Shown here: piece by piece, positions 1-10,298 of the stretch
How the letters are laid out: each line of letters starts with the position of its first letter
How positions within the stretch are numbered: the stretch's first letter is position 1
Assembly (NCBI RefSeq): GCF_003477605.1
Contig: NZ_QUDR01000037.1
Location: 1-10,298 of the forward strand
Source of the DNA: Clostridium sp. AF37-5
GTDB lineage: Bacteria; Bacillota; Clostridia; Lachnospirales; Lachnospiraceae
Direction of reading: 5' to 3'
Length of the DNA stretch: 10,298 nucleotides
The notes under the pieces: model-generated
The model's input: only the letters and a program-made list of their open reading frames with translations
The model's database searches: none
Told to the model about the DNA's origin: nothing
Made by a program: the position numbers and the translations under genes

Positions 1-51
1 GGAAAGGTCGGTACGGGAAAGCATGAGCCGCCCGCTTGCCGTGTCGACACC
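1..51 (-). pseudogene. Start of a third RHS copy (N-terminal motif), joined out of frame to copy B
   Basis: Read from position 51 downwards in the frame starting at 51, this stretch encodes GVDTASGRLMLSRTDLS. That matches 15 of 17 residues of GVDTATGHLMLSRTDLS in copy B (residues 68-84, positions 1925-1875). The DNA is about 76% identical (39/51), so this is a divergent paralogue and not a copy of the same sequence. The motif belongs near the N-terminus of RHS proteins, just after the signal peptide, but here it follows the middle of copy B in a different frame. A TAA lies just upstream in the motif's own frame and there is no start codon or signal peptide. It is therefore the edge of a third rhs gene that lost its 5' end at the junction; the rest lies beyond the window. 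Confidence 0.75.
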
Positions 52-2126
52 GTGCTTACCAGTTTATTTTTTGTACCTGCACCAGAATAGGATTCCTCCG
101 TCACCAGAGGGCATACAAAAGCAGCGTCCCCTGCCAGATATCCTTGAGCTGTTTGATACGTGTATGTCGTCGTATACAGGTGTTCCTTCCCTTTATTTTT
201 TGCCAGATATGCTTTGGGGGATTTCTTGGTTAAGACATTCCGGTACTTATCATAAGTATGCCCCTGTTTGGTCGTGACAGCCTTATCTCCCTTCTTTCCG
301 AAGGACTTGTCGGTTTCCGTAAGTACGAGGGAACCCTGTTCATTTTTATCATAACTGTACAGGGTTTCCTCCTTTTCTTTCCCATAATTTATCTCATCCG
401 TAAGAAGTTTATTTTCATTATATACATACAGACTGACATTTTTCTTGGTATCCTTTTTAAGCCTTAAGGTATCCGGGTTGATTTTGGATTTCTTATAGGT
501 ATAATCATAATACTTTCCGTTTGTTTTATATTTGTTCGGATTAAAGCTGCTGACAACCGTTACCGTGCGGAGTCCTTCATTTCCGTACTGCCAGACTTCA
601 TAAGCGGTTTTCCAGTTGCCTTTATCGTCTTTTTCCCGCTCCCTGAAATCATCATAGGAACGGAGTCCGTCGGTTCCTTTTTTCTGGAAATAATCGTATT
701 TGACGCCATTTGATTTTTTGCCCGTCTTCGTATCTTTTTCATATTCCCTGGTTACATAAAACTGCTCCGTCACCACATCCCTTTTCTGCCCGGCACCGGC
801 ATCTTTTGTGCCATGCAGGGAACCGGCACGGTACTCATAGTGGGTTTCGTTTCCGTCTGCCGTGATTTTGTTCAGAAGGTAACTCTGGTTCGTAGAAACA
901 CGCTGGGATGCCACCCCGGCACCGGAGGTGTTGACCAGCCGCTCCACCGTCTTATAACTATACTTTTCTTTGCTGCCGTCTACGGTCGCACTGGTCAGGA
1001 TCACACCATGCAGCCTGTCCCCATGATGAGGTGTATAGGATTTTTCTTCCGTTTCGTAAGAGATTGTCTTCTTGGACACGCCTCCCCCGGCAGCTTTGCC
1101 CTGAACGGTTACTGATGAAAGGGTCTTTTCCCCATCGTCGTTGTTATAATGGAACGCAATCTCCCGTCCGACGGAATCCGTGATTTTACTGAAATAAATG
1201 CCGTCTGTATAAGTATAGGTAATCTTGTTATCATGGGCATCCTTCTGCAGCACAATTACTCCGTCCTCGTTAAAGTAGGTACGGAGTCCGGTTTTATCTC
1301 TCAGAAGGTATTTACAGGCGATACCGTCTACGCTTTTGTCCCAGTCTTCCAGTTTAATGTCATCATAATCATAGCCTTCCAGTCCCTTGATATGATAACA
1401 TTTATTATCGTCATCTGCCTCTGTTTCGATATTTGCCACACCGGCACTGCCGTAATGCAGGTAGGTAGGATTCTTCCCCCATCCTTCCTCTTCTGTCAAC
1501 GTAACTGTTTCGATCCACGGGAAATCATACCGCCAGCCACTCGCCAAACCATATACGTTATGTCCCTCGTTACTGACAATCTTCGTTCTCTGGGTGTCTT
1601 CCTCATAATGCTTTTTTCCATTAAGCGACACCCCTTTCCATCCAGCGCCCTTTTCATATTTTACCAACAGGTTTTTCAACGCATTTTTATGGTTTTTCAA
1701 AACGGCGGCGTTCACGACAATGCGTCTTTGAGAGCCGTCTGAGGCTGTGTAGTAAACCCAGAGGGTATCCACCTCCAGATCCTCTATATATTCCACCGTG
1801 GCATGTCCAAGATTTGCTTCATTGCTGTCATAATAGCGGTTCAGTTCAAAGTCCATGCCGCCTGTTCCTTCGAGGGAAAGATCTGTCCGGGAAAGCATCA
1901 GATGACCGGTGGCGGTATCAACACCATCTGCTGCTTCGGCTTCCAACGGGGAACCGGCAAGGCGGTTTTCATACACACTCCGGAAGGTGTCGCCATACGC
2001 TGCTTCCATCGCTGTGTCATAGGTTTCCCCTGCCGCCTGACAGGTGGTGCCGGTAGCAAAAAGTACTGCTCCGCAAAGCAAGGCTGTGGCTGCTGCTTTT
2101 GTGATTCCCTTTTTGATCTTTCCCAT
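1..2126 (-). CDS. RHS/YD-repeat polymorphic toxin, N-terminal part (copy B; runs off the window, probably broken)
   Basis: This is the 5' part of a secreted RHS-family protein. The ATG at 2126 has an AGGAG ribosome site (2136-2140) nine bases upstream. Residues 1-32 form a signal peptide: basic MGKIKKGITK, a hydrophobic core, and likely signal peptidase I cleavage near CQAAG. The canonical N-terminal RHS motif follows at residues 68-84 (DGVDTATGHLMLSRTDLS), then FELNRYYDSNEAN, as in DUF6531-type domains. YD-like strands follow, for example ITYTYTDGIYFSKITDSVGR. From residue 571 the protein aligns with copy A (ENKLLTDEINYGKEKEE, KSPKAYLAKNKG) up to about residue 690 (TKNKLVSTV). The frame stays open to position 3, but from about position 51 the DNA encodes the N-terminal RHS motif of another copy in a different frame. 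The last 17 or so residues in frame are thus nonsense and no core end or toxin is present here. I infer a recombined, probably non-functional gene. Confidence 0.88.
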   Translation of the reverse strand, partial: MGKIKKGITKAAATALLCGAVLFATGTTCQAAGETYDTAMEAAYGDTFRSVYENRLAGSPLEAEAADGVDTATGHLMLSRTDLSLEGTGGMDFELNRYYDSNEANLGHATVEYIEDLEVDTLWVYYTASDGSQRRIVVNAAVLKNHKNALKNLLVKYEKGAGWKGVSLNGKKHYEEDTQRTKIVSNEGHNVYGLASGWRYDFPWIETVTLTEEEGWGKNPTYLHYGSAGVANIETEADDDNKCYHIKGLEGYDYDDIKLEDWDKSVDGIACKYLLRDKTGLRTYFNEDGVIVLQKDAHDNKITYTYTDGIYFSKITDSVGREIAFHYNNDDGEKTLSSVTVQGKAAGGGVSKKTISYETEEKSYTPHHGDRLHGVILTSATVDGSKEKYSYKTVERLVNTSGAGVASQRVSTNQSYLLNKITADGNETHYEYRAGSLHGTKDAGAGQKRDVVTEQFYVTREYEKDTKTGKKSNGVKYDYFQKKGTDGLRSYDDFREREKDDKGNWKTAYEVWQYGNEGLRTVTVVSSFNPNKYKTNGKYYDYTYKKSKINPDTLRLKKDTKKNVSLYVYNENKLLTDEINYGKEKEETLYSYDKNEQGSLVLTETDKSFGKKGDKAVTTKQGHTYDKYRNVLTKKSPKAYLAKNKGKEHLYTTTYTYQTAQGYLAGDAAFVCPLVTEESYSGAGTKNKLVSTVSTRQAGGSCFPVPTF
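365..417. repeat. 53-bp perfect direct repeat, copy B member
   Basis: This stretch is identical to 10246-10298. It encodes KLLTDEINYGKEKEE in copy B. Identity drops abruptly below position 365, where copies A and B become clearly different at the DNA level. Confidence 0.95.
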
Positions 2127-2607: not shown

Positions 2608-3078
2608 TTACCATTCACACTCAAAATAAAGAACCCTGTGCGATTTATCTAAATAAAAATCTCCTACCCACGAGTCCGATATATATTTTCCATCGCTAGA
2701 AAAATCATAACTATACAAAAAATTATATTCTAGATTACTTTTCTGTACGAGTATTTTCTTTGGTATTATTTTTTTGGCCTTTTTAGTCTCTTTCCAGTCA
2801 TATTCTTGTGTTATTTTGCAACAAAAATTTTCTCCAATCTTTATAAAACCATCAAATTCTATATTTGAAAGTCCTATCTCTCTTTCATTGCTTTTTACAT
2901 CATAATAATATTTCACTTCCTCTATTTCTTCAATGCATGGAAATTGTTTTTGGACAAATTCTATATCAGTACCAACCTTCGCCTCGTTTCTATTCAAACA
3001 AAAAAACAACAATAATACAAATAACAAGACACAGGCAAATATCAGTATTCCAACCATACATTTATGCAATTTCAACAT
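2608..3078 (-). CDS. Membrane-anchored small protein, candidate immunity protein for the orphan toxin
   Basis: This is a 156-residue protein of no family I recognise. Residues 1-7 are short and basic, residues 8-28 form one strong transmembrane segment (MVGILIFACVLLFVLLLFFC), and the rest is a charged soluble domain with many Lys, Glu and aromatic residues, ending SHRVLYFECEW. The ATG at 3078 has a strong AAAGGAGG site (3088-3095) nine bases upstream. The gene sits 150 bases downstream of a truncated toxin-like tip (3471-3229) on the same strand, the usual place for an immunity gene. Like the toxin pieces, it is much more AT-rich than the rhs cores. Immunity is inferred from position and size. 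A small lipoprotein-like or regulatory membrane protein is the alternative. Confidence 0.7.
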   Translation of the reverse strand: MLKLHKCMVGILIFACVLLFVLLLFFCLNRNEAKVGTDIEFVQKQFPCIEEIEEVKYYYDVKSNEREIGLSNIEFDGFIKIGENFCCKITQEYDWKETKKAKKIIPKKILVQKSNLEYNFLYSYDFSSDGKYISDSWVGDFYLDKSHRVLYFECEW

Positions 3079-3228: not shown

Positions 3229-3471
3229 TCAATTGCTACTTCCTTTATATACTTTTATCTTGATTTTTGCAGTCCTATTTTTCCATGTAACATCCATGTG
3301 AACATAGCCATATGTTTCAAATGAACGCGCCCATCCAAGTTCCTCAAATCTACCATTCTCTCTATCCTTTGCTCGTGAACCAATATCCTGACTTCCATTA
3401 TTAAAGTTACTAAAACTTCCCATACCTGAAACGGGATTCGTACCTTGAAAATTCAATATTTCAGCTAACAA
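3229..3471 (-). pseudogene. Orphan C-terminal toxin tip, truncated by the IS element
   Basis: The open frame reads through the IS inverted end (LAEILNFQG) into SGMGSFSNFNNGSQDIGSRA, then ENGRFEELGWARSFETYGYV, HMDVTWKNRTAKIKIKVYKG and a TGA at 3231-3229. It begins right after the transposase stop in the same frame. The only available start is a TTG inside the IS end with no ribosome site, so it is the 3' remnant of a longer gene and not a native small gene. It ends in alternating beta-like strands and is followed by a candidate immunity gene, so I infer a displaced RHS or other polymorphic toxin tip. I cannot name the toxin family. A partial look-alike of its first 16 residues lies on the other side of the IS on the opposite strand. 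Confidence 0.55.
3404..3426. repeat. Outer inverted repeat, left arm
   Basis: This arm contains ACTAAAACTTCCCA and matches the reverse complement of 4979-5001 at 21 of 23 positions. It lies outside the 32-bp IS end and inside the orphan toxin fragment (codons for GMGSFSN). It is either a shared coding motif of two toxin remnants facing away from each other or part of a longer IS end. Confidence 0.7.
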
Positions 3472-3473
3472 AA
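3442..3473. repeat. IS terminal inverted repeat, transposase 3' side
   Basis: The sequence begins ACCTTGAAAATTCAATATTT and matches the reverse complement of 4932-4963 at 29 of 32 positions; the three differences are transitions. It starts 8 bases beyond the transposase stop codon. Confidence 0.8.
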
Positions 3474-3480
3474 TAGTGAT

Positions 3481-4860
3481 TTATGCCATTGCAATCTCTG
3501 GATGGAGTGCATTGCACAAATATTCAGGTAATCTTGCTTCAAAATCAGAAGTAAAAGCAGTCAGTTGCTCGTCACTGAGCTTTAAGATTTCCTGAAGGCT
3601 TGCCATTAAGGCAGCCATCAGAATAGCAAGTGATCTGCTGAAAGTAATGTCTGCCATTTCATCGACAAGAAAGAAGAACAACTCACCAAGAGTTCTCTGA
3701 TCTTCATTTTGGCGTTGTTCCATTGCAAGTAACATATACCTGGTAAACACAATGGCCACATGGGCTGTCAGTGCATCATAAGATAAGCTATGGCATTCTC
3801 CAATCAGGTTCAGCATGGATTTGCAGGTTTTAAAGAAAACCTCGATCTGCCATCGTTTTCCATAAATACGGATGATCTCTTCTTCGGAAAGAGTCGTATC
3901 TGTGCAGATAAAAGCAAGCCAGTCCTTGCGATTCACTTTGTTCCTTACACAAACGATCTTTGCTGGAATCGGATTCTCTTTTCCGACCATAATGTCAACG
4001 GAAAGCAGATATTTTGATCTGCCACGACGCTTCTTATTCTGGGAATAGATCTCTCTGATATTCAGCTGTTCACCACAGTACGAATATTTGATCCGGCTGC
4101 TTTTCTTGATCATGGCAATCACATTCATACCTTTTGAATGAATGTCTATGACCTGTGCCGGGTTGGAAAACCAGGAATCAAACAGGACATAATCCGCTTT
4201 CAGTCCTGCACTGAGCGCAGTGTCCAACAGAGTCATCATTGCTTCCGGTGCTTTTGTCTGAGCAAGCTTGCGTCTTTTGCCAGCAAGGGTTCTGTTATCA
4301 AAGTTCTTTACCGGACCAATGATATTTGTATCTTTTGCAGATGCCAGCAGACAGCTGTTTACGGGAATCAATGTATTTCCATCACTCCAGCTTAAAGTAA
4401 GCATTCGGAATCCTATTTTGAAACGCATATCCGTGTGGTCAAAAACTTTTGATCCCAGTTCTGTTTTCTTGCAACTGGTGCGGTTGAAAAGACTGTCATC
4501 AATGATGAAAACATTTTTCCTGCTATCATTCGTCAGATTTTTGATGTCATGATCTACGATATCCGCTGCAAGAAGAGAAGTGAAACGAAGCCAGTTTGTT
4601 TTTGTAGAATTAAGGAAACGGTAGAATGTGTCCTTGGAAAAATCTTCCTTAAAAGAGCTGGTCCGTTGCTGCATATACATGCTTCTTCCGACAAAAATGT
4701 TGCTGAGTTTGTACCGAAGCAGAGAAACAGGAGAAACACCTTTTTCTTTCGTTCCATTGCATCTGGCAAGAAGCTTGCCAACATGGTGTTTAGAAAAAAA
4801 TCTCTGAACACAGTCAACTAAGGCTTTTTCATCGGAATGGTTTTGTGGTATACTGGACAT
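3481..4860 (-). CDS. IS4-family DDE transposase
   Basis: This 459-residue transposase is predicted to cut and rejoin the element's ends using an RNase H-like DDE core. Catalytic candidates are Asp121/122 in FIIDDSLFNR, Asp228 in YVLFDSWFSNP, and Glu340 in RIYGKRWQIEVFFKTCK. The last contains the IS4-family YREK signature with exact spacing: Tyr333-x2-Arg336-x3-Glu340-x6-Lys347. An insertion-rich stretch (about 255-325) lies between the second Asp and the Glu, as in many IS4 proteins. Length and all motifs are intact with no frameshift, so it could be active. The ATG at 4860 has an AAAGGAG site nine bases upstream and a clear extended -10 promoter inside the element. I cannot assign a named IS. 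Confidence 0.93.
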   Translation of the reverse strand: MSSIPQNHSDEKALVDCVQRFFSKHHVGKLLARCNGTKEKGVSPVSLLRYKLSNIFVGRSMYMQQRTSSFKEDFSKDTFYRFLNSTKTNWLRFTSLLAADIVDHDIKNLTNDSRKNVFIIDDSLFNRTSCKKTELGSKVFDHTDMRFKIGFRMLTLSWSDGNTLIPVNSCLLASAKDTNIIGPVKNFDNRTLAGKRRKLAQTKAPEAMMTLLDTALSAGLKADYVLFDSWFSNPAQVIDIHSKGMNVIAMIKKSSRIKYSYCGEQLNIREIYSQNKKRRGRSKYLLSVDIMVGKENPIPAKIVCVRNKVNRKDWLAFICTDTTLSEEEIIRIYGKRWQIEVFFKTCKSMLNLIGECHSLSYDALTAHVAIVFTRYMLLAMEQRQNEDQRTLGELFFFLVDEMADITFSRSLAILMAALMASLQEILKLSDEQLTAFTSDFEARLPEYLCNALHPEIAMA

Positions 4861-4931: not shown

Positions 4932-4963
4932 TTTTATTGGCTAAAATATTGAATTTTCAAGGT
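4932..4963. repeat. IS terminal inverted repeat, transposase 5' side
   Basis: The reverse complement begins ACCTTGAAAATTCAATATTT and pairs with 3442-3473 at 29 of 32 positions. It lies upstream of the transposase promoter. Confidence 0.8.
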
Positions 4964-5053
4964 TCAACACACCATATCGGTGTGGGAAGTTTTAGTTACT
5001 TAAACAACGAGGATATATCATCAAAAAGGATGCTGTTCCTGTTACCTGATTAG
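4964..5053 (+). pseudogene. Inverted toxin-like fragment next to the IS
   Basis: On the plus strand, in frame with the IS-end peptide LAKILNFQG, the sequence continues STHHIGVGSFSYLNN, then EDISSKR, and stops at TAG (5051-5053). Reading out of the IS, it aligns without gaps to the orphan toxin fragment on the other side (PVSGMGSFSNFNN). The shared parts are GxGSFS and the double Asn, whose codons differ only at third positions (AAC versus AAT). Similarity fades after about 5012. It therefore looks like a short remnant of a paralogous toxin gene lying in the opposite orientation. It is too short to be functional. Confidence 0.4.
4979..5001. repeat. Outer inverted repeat, right arm
   Basis: This arm contains TGGGAAGTTTTAGT and matches the reverse complement of 3404-3426 at 21 of 23 positions. 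Both arms lie at closely similar distances outside the 32-bp IS ends, so the spacing is conserved as well as the sequence. Confidence 0.7.
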
Positions 5054-5129: not shown

Positions 5130-5726
5130 TTACTTATTTGTTTCAACCTTCTTCTTCCATACTTTATACATCTCGTATAAAGTAAATCTTTTTTCACAAT
5201 CTATATAATGAAGGGTACAATGATATACCGTCCTTCTTGGATTCAAACAATCATTTCCTATAAAACCTAATAAAACCGGCTCATTAACCGAATACTGTTT
5301 TTTCGGTTTTGTAAAAAACCCCCATGAAATATCATTTTCATTTTGTCTCCGAAAAACTTCAGCAAAATAGATGGCCACATCACTACAAATTGCCAGTGTC
5401 TCATAACTCAATTTTATATCGTCTGATATGATTTCTTCGCGAATCCATTGCGGATATTCTTTTGCTATTTCTTCTAATTCACTCCGTGTATATCGTTCTA
5501 TTTTTATTTGTTTTACATACCAATCCCAAATTTCAATTATTGAATTAACAGAAAAGTCCAGCTCTATAGATTGACCTTGTGAATGAACATATTCACACAA
5601 ATATTCTATCCTTTCATCAATATGTTCTATATACCAATTAAAATAGATTTCCGCTTCTCTCTTGGTGAAACTTAAAAAATCCCCTTTTTCTATAGGTGAC
5701 TCTGCTTCCGCAGCAATATACTCCAT
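5130..5726 (-). CDS. Candidate immunity protein for the copy A nuclease toxin
   Basis: This 198-residue acidic protein is predicted to be cytoplasmic, with no signal peptide or membrane segment. It probably neutralises the nuclease domain encoded just upstream. The N-terminal half is helical and rich in aromatic residues (FTKREAEIYFNWYIEHIDER, IIEIWDWYVKQ), and the second half contains YETLAICSDVAIYFAEVFRR and SWGFFTKPKK. I do not recognise a named immunity family. A longer frame from an ATG at 5744 overlaps the RHS stop by one base (TAATG) but lacks a ribosome site. The ATG at 5726 has AGGAGGG six bases upstream, so I prefer it. The gene begins 17 bases after the RHS stop, which indicates coupled expression. 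Like the toxin, it is AT-rich compared with the rhs core. The immunity role is inferred from position. Confidence 0.82.
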   Translation of the reverse strand: MEYIAAEAESPIEKGDFLSFTKREAEIYFNWYIEHIDERIEYLCEYVHSQGQSIELDFSVNSIIEIWDWYVKQIKIERYTRSELEEIAKEYPQWIREEIISDDIKLSYETLAICSDVAIYFAEVFRRQNENDISWGFFTKPKKQYSVNEPVLLGFIGNDCLNPRRTVYHCTLHYIDCEKRFTLYEMYKVWKKKVETNK

Positions 5727-5732
5727 TACAGT

Positions 5733-5739
5733 CCCTCCT
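5733..5739 (-). promoter_or_regulatory. Ribosome binding site deciding the immunity gene start
   Basis: AGGAGGG lies six bases before the ATG at 5726. The alternative ATG at 5744 has only AT-rich toxin-end sequence upstream, so this site selects the shorter product. Confidence 0.75.
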
Positions 5740-5743
5740 AGCA

Positions 5744-8700
5744 TTAATAATGTATTGTGACTTTAATATTGCAGTCATCTAGTAGTTTTAACAACGGCCT
5801 TGAGGCTCCTATTTTCCCCGTTGTGGGGCTTCTATAAAAATGCCAATGTGCTGCCTTTATTTTTCCCGTTTGAACTAGTTCTACATCTTTTTCTATCTGC
5901 TTTTGTATAAATTGGGTTTTTGAAACATATCCAACTTTACTTTCATGTGCAATTCCATTTGCAAACACATCCACTACACGTTTTCCCCCAGATGTATTAA
6001 ATGTTTTATGACCTCCGCCATATGCTTTTTTCAATGCTATTTCCCCAGATTCCCCTCTTTTATAAATTGGGATATCTGACTTTTTTGTTGGTTTTTTTAC
6101 AGGTTTCTTACCCGGTTTTTTCCAACTTTTTTTAGCCTTATTTAAAGCATTTTTAGTTCGTCTAGTTAGATTTTTCCCTTTTAAATTTACCCGTTTTTTT
6201 AAAGCCTTAGAAGATTTTTTTACAACTCGCTTTCCAACAGTTTTTGCACTAGATACAGCAGTTTTGACAGCAGTTTTAGCCTTCCTCGCATATTTTGTAC
6301 CTTTTTGCACTGCTTTTGAACTCTTTACTACTTTGGAAATAGCTTTACCAGCTTTTCCAACATAAGAACCAGGTACGCCGGGAACAATAGTCGCTCCAAC
6401 ATCCCATGCCAGGTTTGCCACATTTTCCCAAGATGGTTCAGTGACCAGCGTATAAATACTATGTCCAATACTCGCAATATCCAGTATCGTCTCAAAAATA
6501 TTCCCACTTGGGTCTGCCTTATTTACTCCATCATTCCCACAGTAAGTATACAGATGCAGGCTTAACGGGTCATCTTCTTCCCCGGTATAGGTATCCCTCG
6601 TCAGGAATCTTCCCAGATACGGCTGGTAATACCTTGCCCGGAGATAGATAGTCTCCGTCTCTCTGTCGTAGTATTCCCCACAGTAGCGGAAGGGATTCTC
6701 ATCCTTTTTATCCGGGTTCACTTCATTCCCGAAGGAATCATACTCATAGTCCTTAATGACTTTGCCGCTGTCATCTGTTAGCTGAACGACATCGCCATGG
6801 GGATTCTTGATATAATACTGCTGCTCTGTTCCGTCTCCCTGATCCGCATACACAAGGTCGTTTCCACGGATATACCGCTTCCGCACCTTGCCGCTGCCGG
6901 ACAGTTCCATGACAACCTCGTCGCCATCCCAGACAAAGACTGTCTTCTCTCTATTCACAGTCTTACTGGTTCGCAGCCCCTCGGCATCATAAGTAAAGCT
7001 TACTTTGCTGTCTCTGGTAAGCGTTTTTGTCAGCTGGTTCAGTGCATTATAGTGGTTGACAACATTCTCGTTCAGTCGGTTGTCTCCCAGTGTCACGTCT
7101 ATGTCAATGTAGGTTCGGTCTTTTTTGTCGCTTGGAATCTCATAGCGGTTAACCGTGGCAAGCTGGTTTCCGTTTTTATCGTTCTTGTAGATAACAACGG
7201 AGTCCTCCTCCGTATCTGTATTTAAAGTGTCTGTACGGAGCAGCTCGTCATTTTTATTGTAGCGGTAAGCAGTGGTCTTATTGCCTGCCTTCATTTCCTT
7301 ACGGTTGTTGTTACTGTCGTAGGAATAGATGATGTCGTCGCTTCCGGTTCTTGTCTCTTTCCGGATATGGCCAAGCAGGTCATAGGTGTAAGTGGCGGTA
7401 CTGCTCCGCTTCTTCCCATCTTTGCCAAGAACCGCAGAAACCTCTTTGGATTTCTGACCGTTTTCTAAGTATTCTGAGCTGTACTTAGAAACCACCCCGG
7501 CACTGCCTGTCTGGTTCTTCATCCTTGTCAGTCGGTTCTGGTAATCATAGGCATAAGTGGTGGTCAGGTTATTTCCCGGCACTTTCCTCTCTGACAGGTT
7601 TCCGTCCTTGTCATAGGTGTATCCCACTACCTTGCGGCCTTTCTCATCGGTAACGGATGCCAGTTTGGATTCCCCGTCATAGGCATAGCGGAGGGAAAGC
7701 TTCTTTTCCCCGCCCACGGCCACAGTAAAGGCGGACCTATTGCCGGCACTGTCGTAAGTATAATGCTTAACCACGTCCTTGTTCTTGGTCAGTTTGGTGG
7801 TCTCGCTGGTAACCTGCCCGGATACATCCCCATAGGTAAATCTGGTGCCGTCCTGGGTTTCCACGTCCCCATAGGCATTGTAAGTATAGGAATGGGTGGT
7901 CTCTTTCCCTGTCTTCTTTTCTTTTGCCACCATCTCCGTCAGGCGGTTCTGGTAGTCATAGGTGTTTTTCAGGGTGTTGCCATTCTTATCTACCGTTTTG
8001 GTGAGGTTGCTGTTTTCATCATAAGAATAGCTCTCCCTTCTTCCCTCCGGGTCGATGAGTGCCACTAATTCATTTTTTTCATTATATTCATACTTTGTCT
8101 CGGCAATGGTATCGGTCTTTTTCTTCCCGCTGACGGTAAGGCGGTAGGTCTTTCCTGCATAAGAGAAGGTATCCGCTTCCTCTCCCTTTTCTCCGGCTTC
8201 ACTTTCCGTCGCCGCATTTCCAGCTTCTGCCCCCTCGCCAGAAGACTCCCCATTTTCACCGGGAACCTCGGATACTACTATCGTGAGCGGGCTGGTCATG
8301 CCCGTAAACTGGCGCACCTTGTTTCCCATAATGTCATAGACATACTGGACGTACTGCGCTTTTCCATCTTCCATGCAGTTTTTAACCATGACAAGGCTGC
8401 CCCGCTTATCATAAGTATACTCCGTTCTTGTCGTCCTGTCAGCATCTATTTTTTCATTCTGTGCTATGACATTTCCCGTGGTATCATACTCTGTCGTGGT
8501 GGTCTGATAATGGATGCTTCCATCTTCCTTTTCCAACGGATACTCTGCCCGTATCATCTGACCGAGAATGTCATAGGTATATTGGGTGGAAACGCCTTCT
8601 CCCACACCCTTCGGAGTGTATTCCTTTATAATATTTCCCTGGTCGTCATAATCCGCCTTCGTTATCCGGGACTGCCAGTCCGTATCCCCCTCTTTCCGGC

Positions 8701-10298
8701 TCTTTGTCTCGGTCTGGCTGACATTTCCATTTTCATCGTATACCAGAAGAACTTCTTCCTCATAAGACGGAAGCCACTTCCCATCCTGGTATTTTTTAGT
8801 AACTGTGTTTTCCTTGACATTTCTTCCAAAATCGTCTGTCTCATATGTGGCAATCACTTCGGAACGATTTTTCCCCCGGATGGTGGTACTTGTCTTGGAC
8901 AGGATATTTCCCTCTGCGTCCGACACAGTTTCGGTAATGTTCTCACTCAGCACGGCATCATTAAACTGGTCGTAATAATTATCTGTATCCACCTCCGATT
9001 GATATACCAATGGATTCAGTTCCTTGCTGTAACTGATGGTAATCGTCTGTGCCACATCATCCTCGCCGATGACTTCTGTTTCTTCCTTGGTAAAATTCCA
9101 AGAGGTGCAGTGGGCGGCATCCAGTTCCCCGTTGCTGAAGCTGGCACTGCCGATCTCTTCGCCTGCATCGTCATAGAAATATTTGCTGCCGCTTAATACT
9201 TTGTTTCCCCTGCCCGTAATGTAGAAGTTGGGAACCGTTTTCCCATCCTCATTGACGATGAATTTCTTTTCGTCGGGCTTGAAAGCATATGTCCGTTTCT
9301 CCAGCAGACGGTCATTTTCTTCCTGCTCTAAATCCGGGTCATCCTCCTCTTCCCCGGTCTCTGCTCCGTATTCATAAACATTTTCTGTCCATGTGCCGGA
9401 TGCTTCGTCCTTGCTGATGATGGTATTGTCAAAAGCATCCTGTATGTCGATAGCTGCCCGTCCATACTCGTCCAGTGTCATGGTTTTTAGGGCATCTGTG
9501 GATACATATTCCCTGTCTTTGGATTCATACTCTGTCCCTGCCGCCTCTATGGTCTCTTTTTCCTCCCCAGTTTCCGGGTCATAGGAGGTTTTTGTGACAA
9601 GACCATTCTCATCTGTAGTGGACAGGCAGTTTCCAAAGGAATCATAAGTGATTTCTTCTTCCGTGTAGGTGCGGTTTGATGACGGGTTTTTTGCAGAATC
9701 CAGCGTGACATCTTTCTTGGTCTGCTGTCCCAACGCATTGTATGTATAATCATTCTGGATGATTTCCTTTTCCCCATCACTGCCATAGGTTGGAAAAACT
9801 TTTCCCTGGGTTTCATTTCCCTGGGCATCATATTTGAAATCTGTTTTGGATACTGTTTTATAGGCAGCACCACCTACACTCCTCTGCTCCGAGATACTGC
9901 TGTAATCAATGCCATTAGAGGCAATTTTGCTTTCCAGTTTGATTTTTGTCTTTGCTGAATCGTATAATTCCTGTTTTGTCAATATACACAAACAGAATGG
10001 CCTGTCATCGGCAGGATAACCGGCATCCGTATTATGGTAAGCATATGTTACTGTATACAGATGCTCTTTCCCCTTGTTTTTTGCAAGGTAAGCTTTGGGG
10101 GATTTCTCTGTCAGGACATTTCGATAATTGTCGTAGGTGTACCCCTGCTTTGAAGTGACTGCTCCGCTCCCCTTTTTACCCCAAAACCTACTGGTCTCTA
10201 ACGTCACCAGAGAACCGTTCTCGTCCTTGTCATATTTGTAACTATTTTCCTCCTTTTCTTTCCCATAATTTATCTCATCCGTAAGAAGTTTATTTTCA
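5744..10298 (-). CDS. RHS/YD-repeat polymorphic toxin with C-terminal PD-(D/E)xK nuclease domain (copy A, 5' end outside the window)
   Basis: This is a large secreted-type RHS protein that delivers a C-terminal toxin. The frame is open to the window edge (1517 codons). An apparent GTG start at 10207 is internal, since 30 further codons (ENKLLTDEINYGKEKEE...) match copy B. By alignment to copy B about 570 N-terminal residues are missing, so the full protein may approach 2,090 residues. Numbered from 10207: YD-type repeats throughout (for example YTYDKDGNLSER), an acidic Gly/Glu-rich insert near 644-680, the RHS core end RYYQPYLGRFLTRDTY at 1192 and DPSG at 1232-1235, a hydrophobic pre-toxin segment to 1284, a Lys-rich linker 1285-1384, then the toxin 1385-1487. 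The toxin has Glu1386/Glu1389, Asp1413 in RVVDVF and Glu1422-x-Lys1424 in HESKVGY. The tip is clearly more AT-rich than the core. Confidence 0.93.
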   Translation of the reverse strand, partial: ENKLLTDEINYGKEKEENSYKYDKDENGSLVTLETSRFWGKKGSGAVTSKQGYTYDNYRNVLTEKSPKAYLAKNKGKEHLYTVTYAYHNTDAGYPADDRPFCLCILTKQELYDSAKTKIKLESKIASNGIDYSSISEQRSVGGAAYKTVSKTDFKYDAQGNETQGKVFPTYGSDGEKEIIQNDYTYNALGQQTKKDVTLDSAKNPSSNRTYTEEEITYDSFGNCLSTTDENGLVTKTSYDPETGEEKETIEAAGTEYESKDREYVSTDALKTMTLDEYGRAAIDIQDAFDNTIISKDEASGTWTENVYEYGAETGEEEDDPDLEQEENDRLLEKRTYAFKPDEKKFIVNEDGKTVPNFYITGRGNKVLSGSKYFYDDAGEEIGSASFSNGELDAAHCTSWNFTKEETEVIGEDDVAQTITISYSKELNPLVYQSEVDTDNYYDQFNDAVLSENITETVSDAEGNILSKTSTTIRGKNRSEVIATYETDDFGRNVKENTVTKKYQDGKWLPSYEEEVLLVYDENGNVSQTETKSRKEGDTDWQSRITKADYDDQGNIIKEYTPKGVGEGVSTQYTYDILGQMIRAEYPLEKEDGSIHYQTTTTEYDTTGNVIAQNEKIDADRTTRTEYTYDKRGSLVMVKNCMEDGKAQYVQYVYDIMGNKVRQFTGMTSPLTIVVSEVPGENGESSGEGAEAGNAATESEAGEKGEEADTFSYAGKTYRLTVSGKKKTDTIAETKYEYNEKNELVALIDPEGRRESYSYDENSNLTKTVDKNGNTLKNTYDYQNRLTEMVAKEKKTGKETTHSYTYNAYGDVETQDGTRFTYGDVSGQVTSETTKLTKNKDVVKHYTYDSAGNRSAFTVAVGGEKKLSLRYAYDGESKLASVTDEKGRKVVGYTYDKDGNLSERKVPGNNLTTTYAYDYQNRLTRMKNQTGSAGVVSKYSSEYLENGQKSKEVSAVLGKDGKKRSSTATYTYDLLGHIRKETRTGSDDIIYSYDSNNNRKEMKAGNKTTAYRYNKNDELLRTDTLNTDTEEDSVVIYKNDKNGNQLATVNRYEIPSDKKDRTYIDIDVTLGDNRLNENVVNHYNALNQLTKTLTRDSKVSFTYDAEGLRTSKTVNREKTVFVWDGDEVVMELSGSGKVRKRYIRGNDLVYADQGDGTEQQYYIKNPHGDVVQLTDDSGKVIKDYEYDSFGNEVNPDKKDENPFRYCGEYYDRETETIYLRARYYQPYLGRFLTRDTYTGEEDDPLSLHLYTYCGNDGVNKADPSGNIFETILDIASIGHSIYTLVTEPSWENVANLAWDVGATIVPGVPGSYVGKAGKAISKVVKSSKAVQKGTKYARKAKTAVKTAVSSAKTVGKRVVKKSSKALKKRVNLKGKNLTRRTKNALNKAKKSWKKPGKKPVKKPTKKSDIPIYKRGESGEIALKKAYGGGHKTFNTSGGKRVVDVFANGIAHESKVGYVSKTQFIQKQIEKDVELVQTGKIKAAHWHFYRSPTTGKIGASRPLLKLLDDCNIKVTIHY
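5747..6055 (-). other. Restriction-endonuclease-fold toxin domain of copy A
   Basis: These 103 C-terminal residues carry the PD-(D/E)xK layout: Glu in GESGEIALKK, Asp in KRVVDVF about 24 residues later, and ExK in AHESKVGYVSK, followed by a helix with Gln (QFIQKQIEKDVEL) and a terminal HWHFYRSPTTGKIGAS strand region. This is typical of Tox-REase-type tips in polymorphic toxins, which cut nucleic acid in the target cell. DNA as the substrate is an inference. The catalytic residues appear intact. Confidence 0.75.
10246..10298. repeat. 53-bp perfect direct repeat, copy A member (cut by the window edge)
   Basis: This stretch is identical to 365-417 and still matching at the last base of the window, so the repeat is probably longer. 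It marks the shared 5' part of the two rhs genes. Confidence 0.95.

Follow-up and report, generated by a model that had tools for sequence, protein, structure and literature searches.

An rhs gene at the edge of a Lachnospiraceae sequence jumps out of frame, across six shared bases, to the N-terminal motif of an L005-type module: probably a real rearrangement in a repetitive gene family

The rhs genes are a family used in fights between bacteria, and a DUF6531-type N-terminal domain typifies the polymorphic toxin genes with RHS/YD repeats. A stretch of 10,298 nt from a contig of Clostridium sp. AF37-5, called the window, carries two rhs genes in one orientation, copy A and copy B, and copy B raises a question: close to the left end of the window it leaves its reading frame and continues with a motif that belongs near the N-terminus of an rhs protein. 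Where does this second N-terminal motif come from, and is the fusion a real rearrangement or an artefact of library or assembly? The features of the window are collected in Table 1.

Table 1 Features of the 10,298-nt window that bear on the copy B junction, with neighbouring genes.
Feature	Position	Strand	Basis
N-terminal rhs motif of the L005-type module, at the window end, in a frame other than copy B's	1..53	-	53/53 identity to L005 1949-2001
Copy B ORF, 708 aa; open at the window end, last 15 residues out of frame	3..2126	-	ORF list, translations
Junction microhomology ACGGTG, in both parents (L005 3823-3828 and 1949-1954)	48..53	-	sequence comparison; chance 0.0029
L005-type middle of copy B	48..692	-	638/645 vs L005
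Exact 53-nt repeat of the window's right end, within copy B	365..417	-	sequence comparison
Copy B's own 5' part: start codon, putative signal peptide (by eye), DUF6531 domain	693..2126	-	Pfam DUF6531 1.2e-6
156-aa ORF beside the rhs genes	2608-3078	-	ORF list
IS4-family transposase between copies A and B	3481..4860	-	NCBIfam NF049925 5.3e-178
204-aa ORF, starting at copy A's stop	5130-5744	-	ORF list
Copy A, rhs gene, 5' part outside the window; RHS repeats and associated core	5744..10297	-	RHS_repeat 1.3e-36, Rhs_assc_core 1.4e-18
Window's right end, where copy A is cut off; exact 53-nt repeat	10246..10298	-	sequence comparison

Read on the minus strand, copy B keeps the rhs reading frame to window ~48, as far as GAGTKNKLVSTV, and window 53-1 (-) encodes an N-terminal rhs motif (GVDTASGRLMLSRTDLS) in a frame that differs from copy B's; translated across the junction, the rhs frame gives ...GAGTKNKLVSTVSTRQAGGSCFPVPTF and the other frame ...YKK*TGKHGVDTASGRLMLSRTDLS. 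The earlier note had described copy B as in frame down to about position 53 and the motif as lying in another frame past the switch, and the translation of both frames bears this out. Its comparison of the tail with copy B's own motif (15/17 residues, ~76% in DNA) was reproduced when we recounted from the alignment and the translations (15/17 residues and 39/51 nt, or 76%), and its view of the adjoining sequence as the RHS N-terminal domain motif of another gene type holds for the 53 nt present. The switch, which it called sharp within a few bases, is confined to the hexamer ACGGTG at window 53-48, common to both parents, and the breakpoint may lie anywhere within those 6 bases. Because only 0.29% of random site pairs in the gene L005, described below, share at least 6 bases at the junction, the short homology probably guided the event. 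Laboratory-made chimeric molecules likewise favour short homology. A 10-bp palindrome at the junction (GTGTCGACAC) was considered as a site-specific recombination site and taken as chance, since by eye it is absent from the same codons in copy B and L001. A junction made by an insertion sequence is not favoured either, the sole transposase seen in the window lying at 3481-4860.

Both parents of the junction are found in one gene. Scanning genome contigs with the copy B protein gave 8 loci, among them L005, an intact rhs gene of 2049 aa in a metagenome-assembled genome of an uncultured Lachnospiraceae, whose source animal is presumably a rabbit, going by the isolate name Lapin-023. Window 1-53 is identical to L005 1949-2001 (53/53, no mismatch), and at ≤3 mismatches this stretch occurs in 1/397 family genomes, L005's own, which together rule out a chance similarity. 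On the other side of the junction, window 48-692 agrees with L005 3184-3828 at 638 of 645 positions, with 7 differences. Window position 48 thus corresponds both to L005 3828 and to L005 1954, and therefore the junction is a backward jump of 1,874 bp inside one gene type; as this length is 2 modulo 3, the frame is not kept. The earlier note had named a third, diverged gene as the source, and this part has to be given up: the donor is of the L005 type, the same type that supplies copy B's window 48-692, and a foreign donor is ruled out by the fact that copy B itself turns L005-type at window 692/693.

Two sources are combined in copy B: a 5' end of its own gives way at window 692/693 to L005-type sequence, which makes the gene a mosaic. 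Compared in steps of 90 nt, the part upstream of window ~687-693 is 47-81% identical to L005 and 67-88% to L001, and window 48-692 is 96-100% identical to L005 and 53-87% to eight other aligned copies. The switch is sharp, with 7 differences to L005 in window 706-687, the last of them at 693, and 0 in window 686-667. The DUF6531 domain (PF20148) was matched at 1.2e-6 with 29.2 bits against a cut-off of 24.1, the NCBIfam search with copy B gave no match, and copy B ends short of the RHS-associated core. The mosaic is present in a second assembly, because the ENA protein P0025 is identical to copy B up to residue 497, beyond the switch; it then continues with an out-of-frame tail that corresponds to copy B's other frame up to a stop. 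Another ENA protein, P0073, follows copy B to residue 368 and then changes frame. The copy B allele thus appears interrupted in other assemblies at two more sites, unless these are sequencing errors; such frame changes may reflect decay, relaxed selection or sequencing error just as well as switching.

The same out-of-frame fusion was found in one other protein. When copy B residues 665-708 were used as a query for the tail, 11/28 candidates reached E 0.001, and of those 11 only P0007 aligns over the full query (44 residues, 100%), coverage being 68-70% in the others. P0007 differs from copy B at 3 positions over residues 470-708, and its 5' part is not that of copy B but L005-type (98.6% over 694 aa). 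A random chimera is less likely because the same out-of-frame tail (44/44) stands here behind a different 5' part. P0007 ends with one extra residue, P, and in L005 the frame of copy B's tail likewise runs for one more residue (P) and then reaches a stop; the extra P also fits a contig that ends 55 nt into the module. The longest contig for P0007 is 12,956 bp, and its cluster holds 219 member sequences, which is the cluster total and not a count of tail carriers.

We also examined proteins that start inside the module. In the module frame a stop lies at window 66-64, and codon 76 is the first start after the junction, followed by codon 90. Three ENA proteins begin at these codons, P0045 and P0046 at codon 76 and P0052 at codon 90; they amount to 3 of the 27 L005-type proteins (26 recognized by one marker, and P0031). 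Each of the three extends to residue 567, with R560 and I567, two residues absent from 21/21 L005-type proteins that have a full 5' part and cover those sites; this pattern would fit a separate locus whose module has lost its N-terminal part. The starts at codons 76 and 90 may themselves be an effect of gene calling at contig starts, and the three proteins were downgraded as proof of the junction, since all 81 retrieved proteins begin with M. A further search for module starts (47 of 88 candidates) yielded 10 new proteins, every one with an ordinary N-terminus. The ends CLLYTS... and DRKSVV of P0009, P0016, P0042 and P0044 are what we take to be translated sequencing adapters at contig ends.

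Next we analyzed how widely the L005-type module is used. Copy A matches PF05593 (1.3e-36), TIGR03696 (1.4e-18) and TIGR01643 (6.4e-22), and the RHS/YD repeats and the Rhs-associated core are thus present; its last 258 residues gave weak Pfam matches, all below cut-off. In a comparison of 28 of the 71 retrieved proteins with copy A, copy B, L005 and L001, an L005-type 5' part was followed by copy A at 99.4-100% in 11/28 (P0015, P0018-P0021, P0023, P0024, P0026-P0028, P0034) and by a different gene body, 71-80% like copy A, in 9/28 (P0016, P0017, P0022, P0029-P0033, P0035). At least three gene types, those of L005, copy A and P0016, have this 5' module in common. Judging from these protein comparisons, with their 11 joins to copy A and 9 to the other body, the missing 5' half of copy A is most likely the same L005-type module that is entered at the window's left end. 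In P0024 and P0034 the copy-A sequence is followed by a short tail, EMVKHFCNIHTEKNH, at two sites (near residues 864 and 1197), the pattern expected if one element had been inserted twice.

The region between the two rhs genes holds further features. The IS4-family transposase is flanked by an inverted repeat of 76 nt (78%) at window 3398-3473 / 4932-5007, in which, by eye, the ends of the element and portions of its flanks can be recognized; the flanks resemble one small fragment present twice in inverted orientation. The 156-aa and 204-aa ORFs, which gave no match in Pfam or NCBIfam, are candidate immunity genes by their position.

The junction was then searched for in other DNA. The junction pattern gave 0 matches in viral contigs, in 0/40 rhs loci and, at ≤3 mismatches, in 0/397 family genomes; the last figure says little because the donor motif allele is present in just 1/397. 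In L005's genus the N-terminal domain was matched 20 times in 11/39 genomes, and none of the 16 motif-matched loci among these 20 has the junction, 15 showing a normal N-terminus and 1 being out of frame upstream. The remaining 4/20 (L028, L029, L037, L040) were not matched by the motif pattern and stand outside this count, and L027, L035 and L038 resemble one another and may be one gene counted thrice. The out-of-frame locus is L024, the same gene as L007, from a Roseburia-labelled genome, whose rhs frame is broken shortly before the N-terminal motif. Window 1-420 found no match in plasmids, and the viral contigs held no relative of P0007 and none of copy A (7 stretches matched the pattern, 0 encode a relative). 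The idea that the window is part of a phage or plasmid is therefore unsupported by these searches, which do not place the window.

How, then, is the junction to be explained? We infer that it exists in living cells, and to its being a real microhomology-mediated rearrangement, by tandem duplication or by fusion of one copy to its neighbour, we assign a probability of about 0.6. The main competitor is a chimera of library or assembly, in which templates switched between rhs copies and the assembler followed the few hybrids as far as the repeated L005-type 5' module, where the contig ended. Such an origin is suggested by the position of the junction, which lies ≤53 nt (47-53) from the window end: exactly 53 nt of L005-type module stand between that end and the junction, and the repeat at the right end is equally 53 nt long. 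Equal repeats of this kind are to be expected if the two window ends are contig ends at branching nodes of an assembly graph, in which case the reads would have carried the junction and the contig would have stopped only at the merge with the repeated module. The microhomology is just 6 bp, a length that laboratory chimeras also use, an intact L005 exists, other assemblies too have rhs genes at contig ends or close to them (for example L004, L006, L007 and L008), and the junction was found in no searched DNA outside the window. On the other hand, P0007 has the same fusion behind a different 5' half. If the hybrid molecules were rare, moreover, one would expect the assembly to follow the genuine sequence beyond the L005-type middle, whereas the window runs through the junction unbroken. 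Because the junction lies 47-53 nt from a graph-like end, an assembly error keeps some probability, and we consider it possible but rather unlikely. The earlier note had set a real deletion between tandem rhs genes against an assembly error; the recurrence in P0007 favours the real rearrangement, whereas the deletion loses its special place, since a tandem duplication explains the junction equally well. A silent donor cassette, which the note thought such a deletion might leave, would be a hypothetical role.

Two further explanations accept the junction as real and give it a different meaning. In one, the gene is switched off by the tandem duplication and comes back through homologous recombination of one 1.87-kb direct copy with the other, so that on and off forms would coexist in a population. 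The intact form (L005) and the fused form (P0007) of the same gene type do exist, in different records, and the part of Koskiniemi 2014 (PMC3967940) cited here proposes for Salmonella a locus duplication, rhs recombination and reversal by recombination. However, the two forms were seen together in no sample, the plain frame changes of the copy B allele in P0025 and P0073 fit decay as well, and the second adjoining copy is visible for 53 nt only, the two copies never being read in one piece; we regard such a reversible switch as very unlikely here. Its generalization, that out-of-frame internal tandem duplications of the 5' module serve gut Lachnospiraceae as reversible off-switches of rhs genes, with collapse between the 1.87-kb copies restoring the gene and the spare module acting as a donor for 5' swaps, is a speculation that we would offer with little confidence. 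In the other, the window would be one turn of a repeated or circular unit, the copy B tail entering an L005-type module that leads back into copy A. The left end does enter such a module, which precedes copy A in 11 proteins, but closure of a circle is not inferable because at least three gene types have the module, and this explanation appears extremely improbable.

A real rearrangement might have proceeded as follows. In a member of the Lachnospiraceae, probably of an animal gut, several rhs genes with near-identical 5' modules would recombine, giving rise to the copy B mosaic with its own 5' end and L005-type sequence from window 692, and a short-homology event at ACGGTG would then lead from codon 691-692, in the L005-type middle, back to codon 66 in a 5' module of the L005 type. 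The gene may have duplicated 1,874 bp of itself in tandem, or it may have been fused to the next rhs copy after a deletion, and the local sequence fits both. If the L005 sequence continues beyond the window, copy B would gain one residue and stop, without an RHS core and toxin tip, and the downstream module, lacking a start and a signal peptide, would open only at the ATG of codon 76.

Parts of this picture are familiar. For enterobacteria, the passages cited here describe rhs gene exchange, orphan fragments that lack a start, and recombination subsequent to duplication (PMC2935791, PMC3967940), and for a bee gut symbiont orphaned toxin fragments and core recombination (PMC5727410). As in the orphan rhs and C-terminal displacement set out in the relevant part of Jackson 2009 (PMC2935791), tandem rhs genes and fragments stand in one locus and shared cores exchange parts; the dissociated fragments described there are, however, C-terminal tips, whereas here the N-terminal module comes first, with 53 nt visible. 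The main and orphan rhs genes of Salmonella, as that section of Koskiniemi 2014 (PMC3967940) presents them, resemble our case in their recombination within the locus, proposed to follow duplication, and in their mixed forms. The orphan fragment there lacks a translation start and export signals, as the downstream module here, judged from 53 nt, would lack a start before codon 76; in Salmonella, though, 522 bp of 95% identity led to a working fusion, whereas here 6 bp are shared and the frame is broken. The same source notes a high rate of loss for gene duplications. Polymorphic toxin loci with recombining cassettes (PMC3482391) likewise have modular toxin genes varied by recombination, but the variation in the cited description lies in the 3' toxin cassette, in contrast to the switches in the 5' and middle parts found here. 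Among the titles and abstract openings listed by the literature searches, we found no description of an out-of-frame rhs self-fusion.

Recombination of rhs genes is thus already well known, and the copy B junction probably reflects a genuine rearrangement, of an ordinary sort, in a repetitive family. What our analysis adds is an rhs gene of Lachnospiraceae type that is a mosaic in its 5' and middle parts and that jumps back, out of frame, to the N-terminal motif. Ends of contigs in rhs arrays call for long reads before gene fusions there are believed. If the junction is real, recombination in this Gram-positive family reaches the 5' and middle parts of rhs genes, besides the toxin tip, and jumps guided by short homology can break rhs genes.
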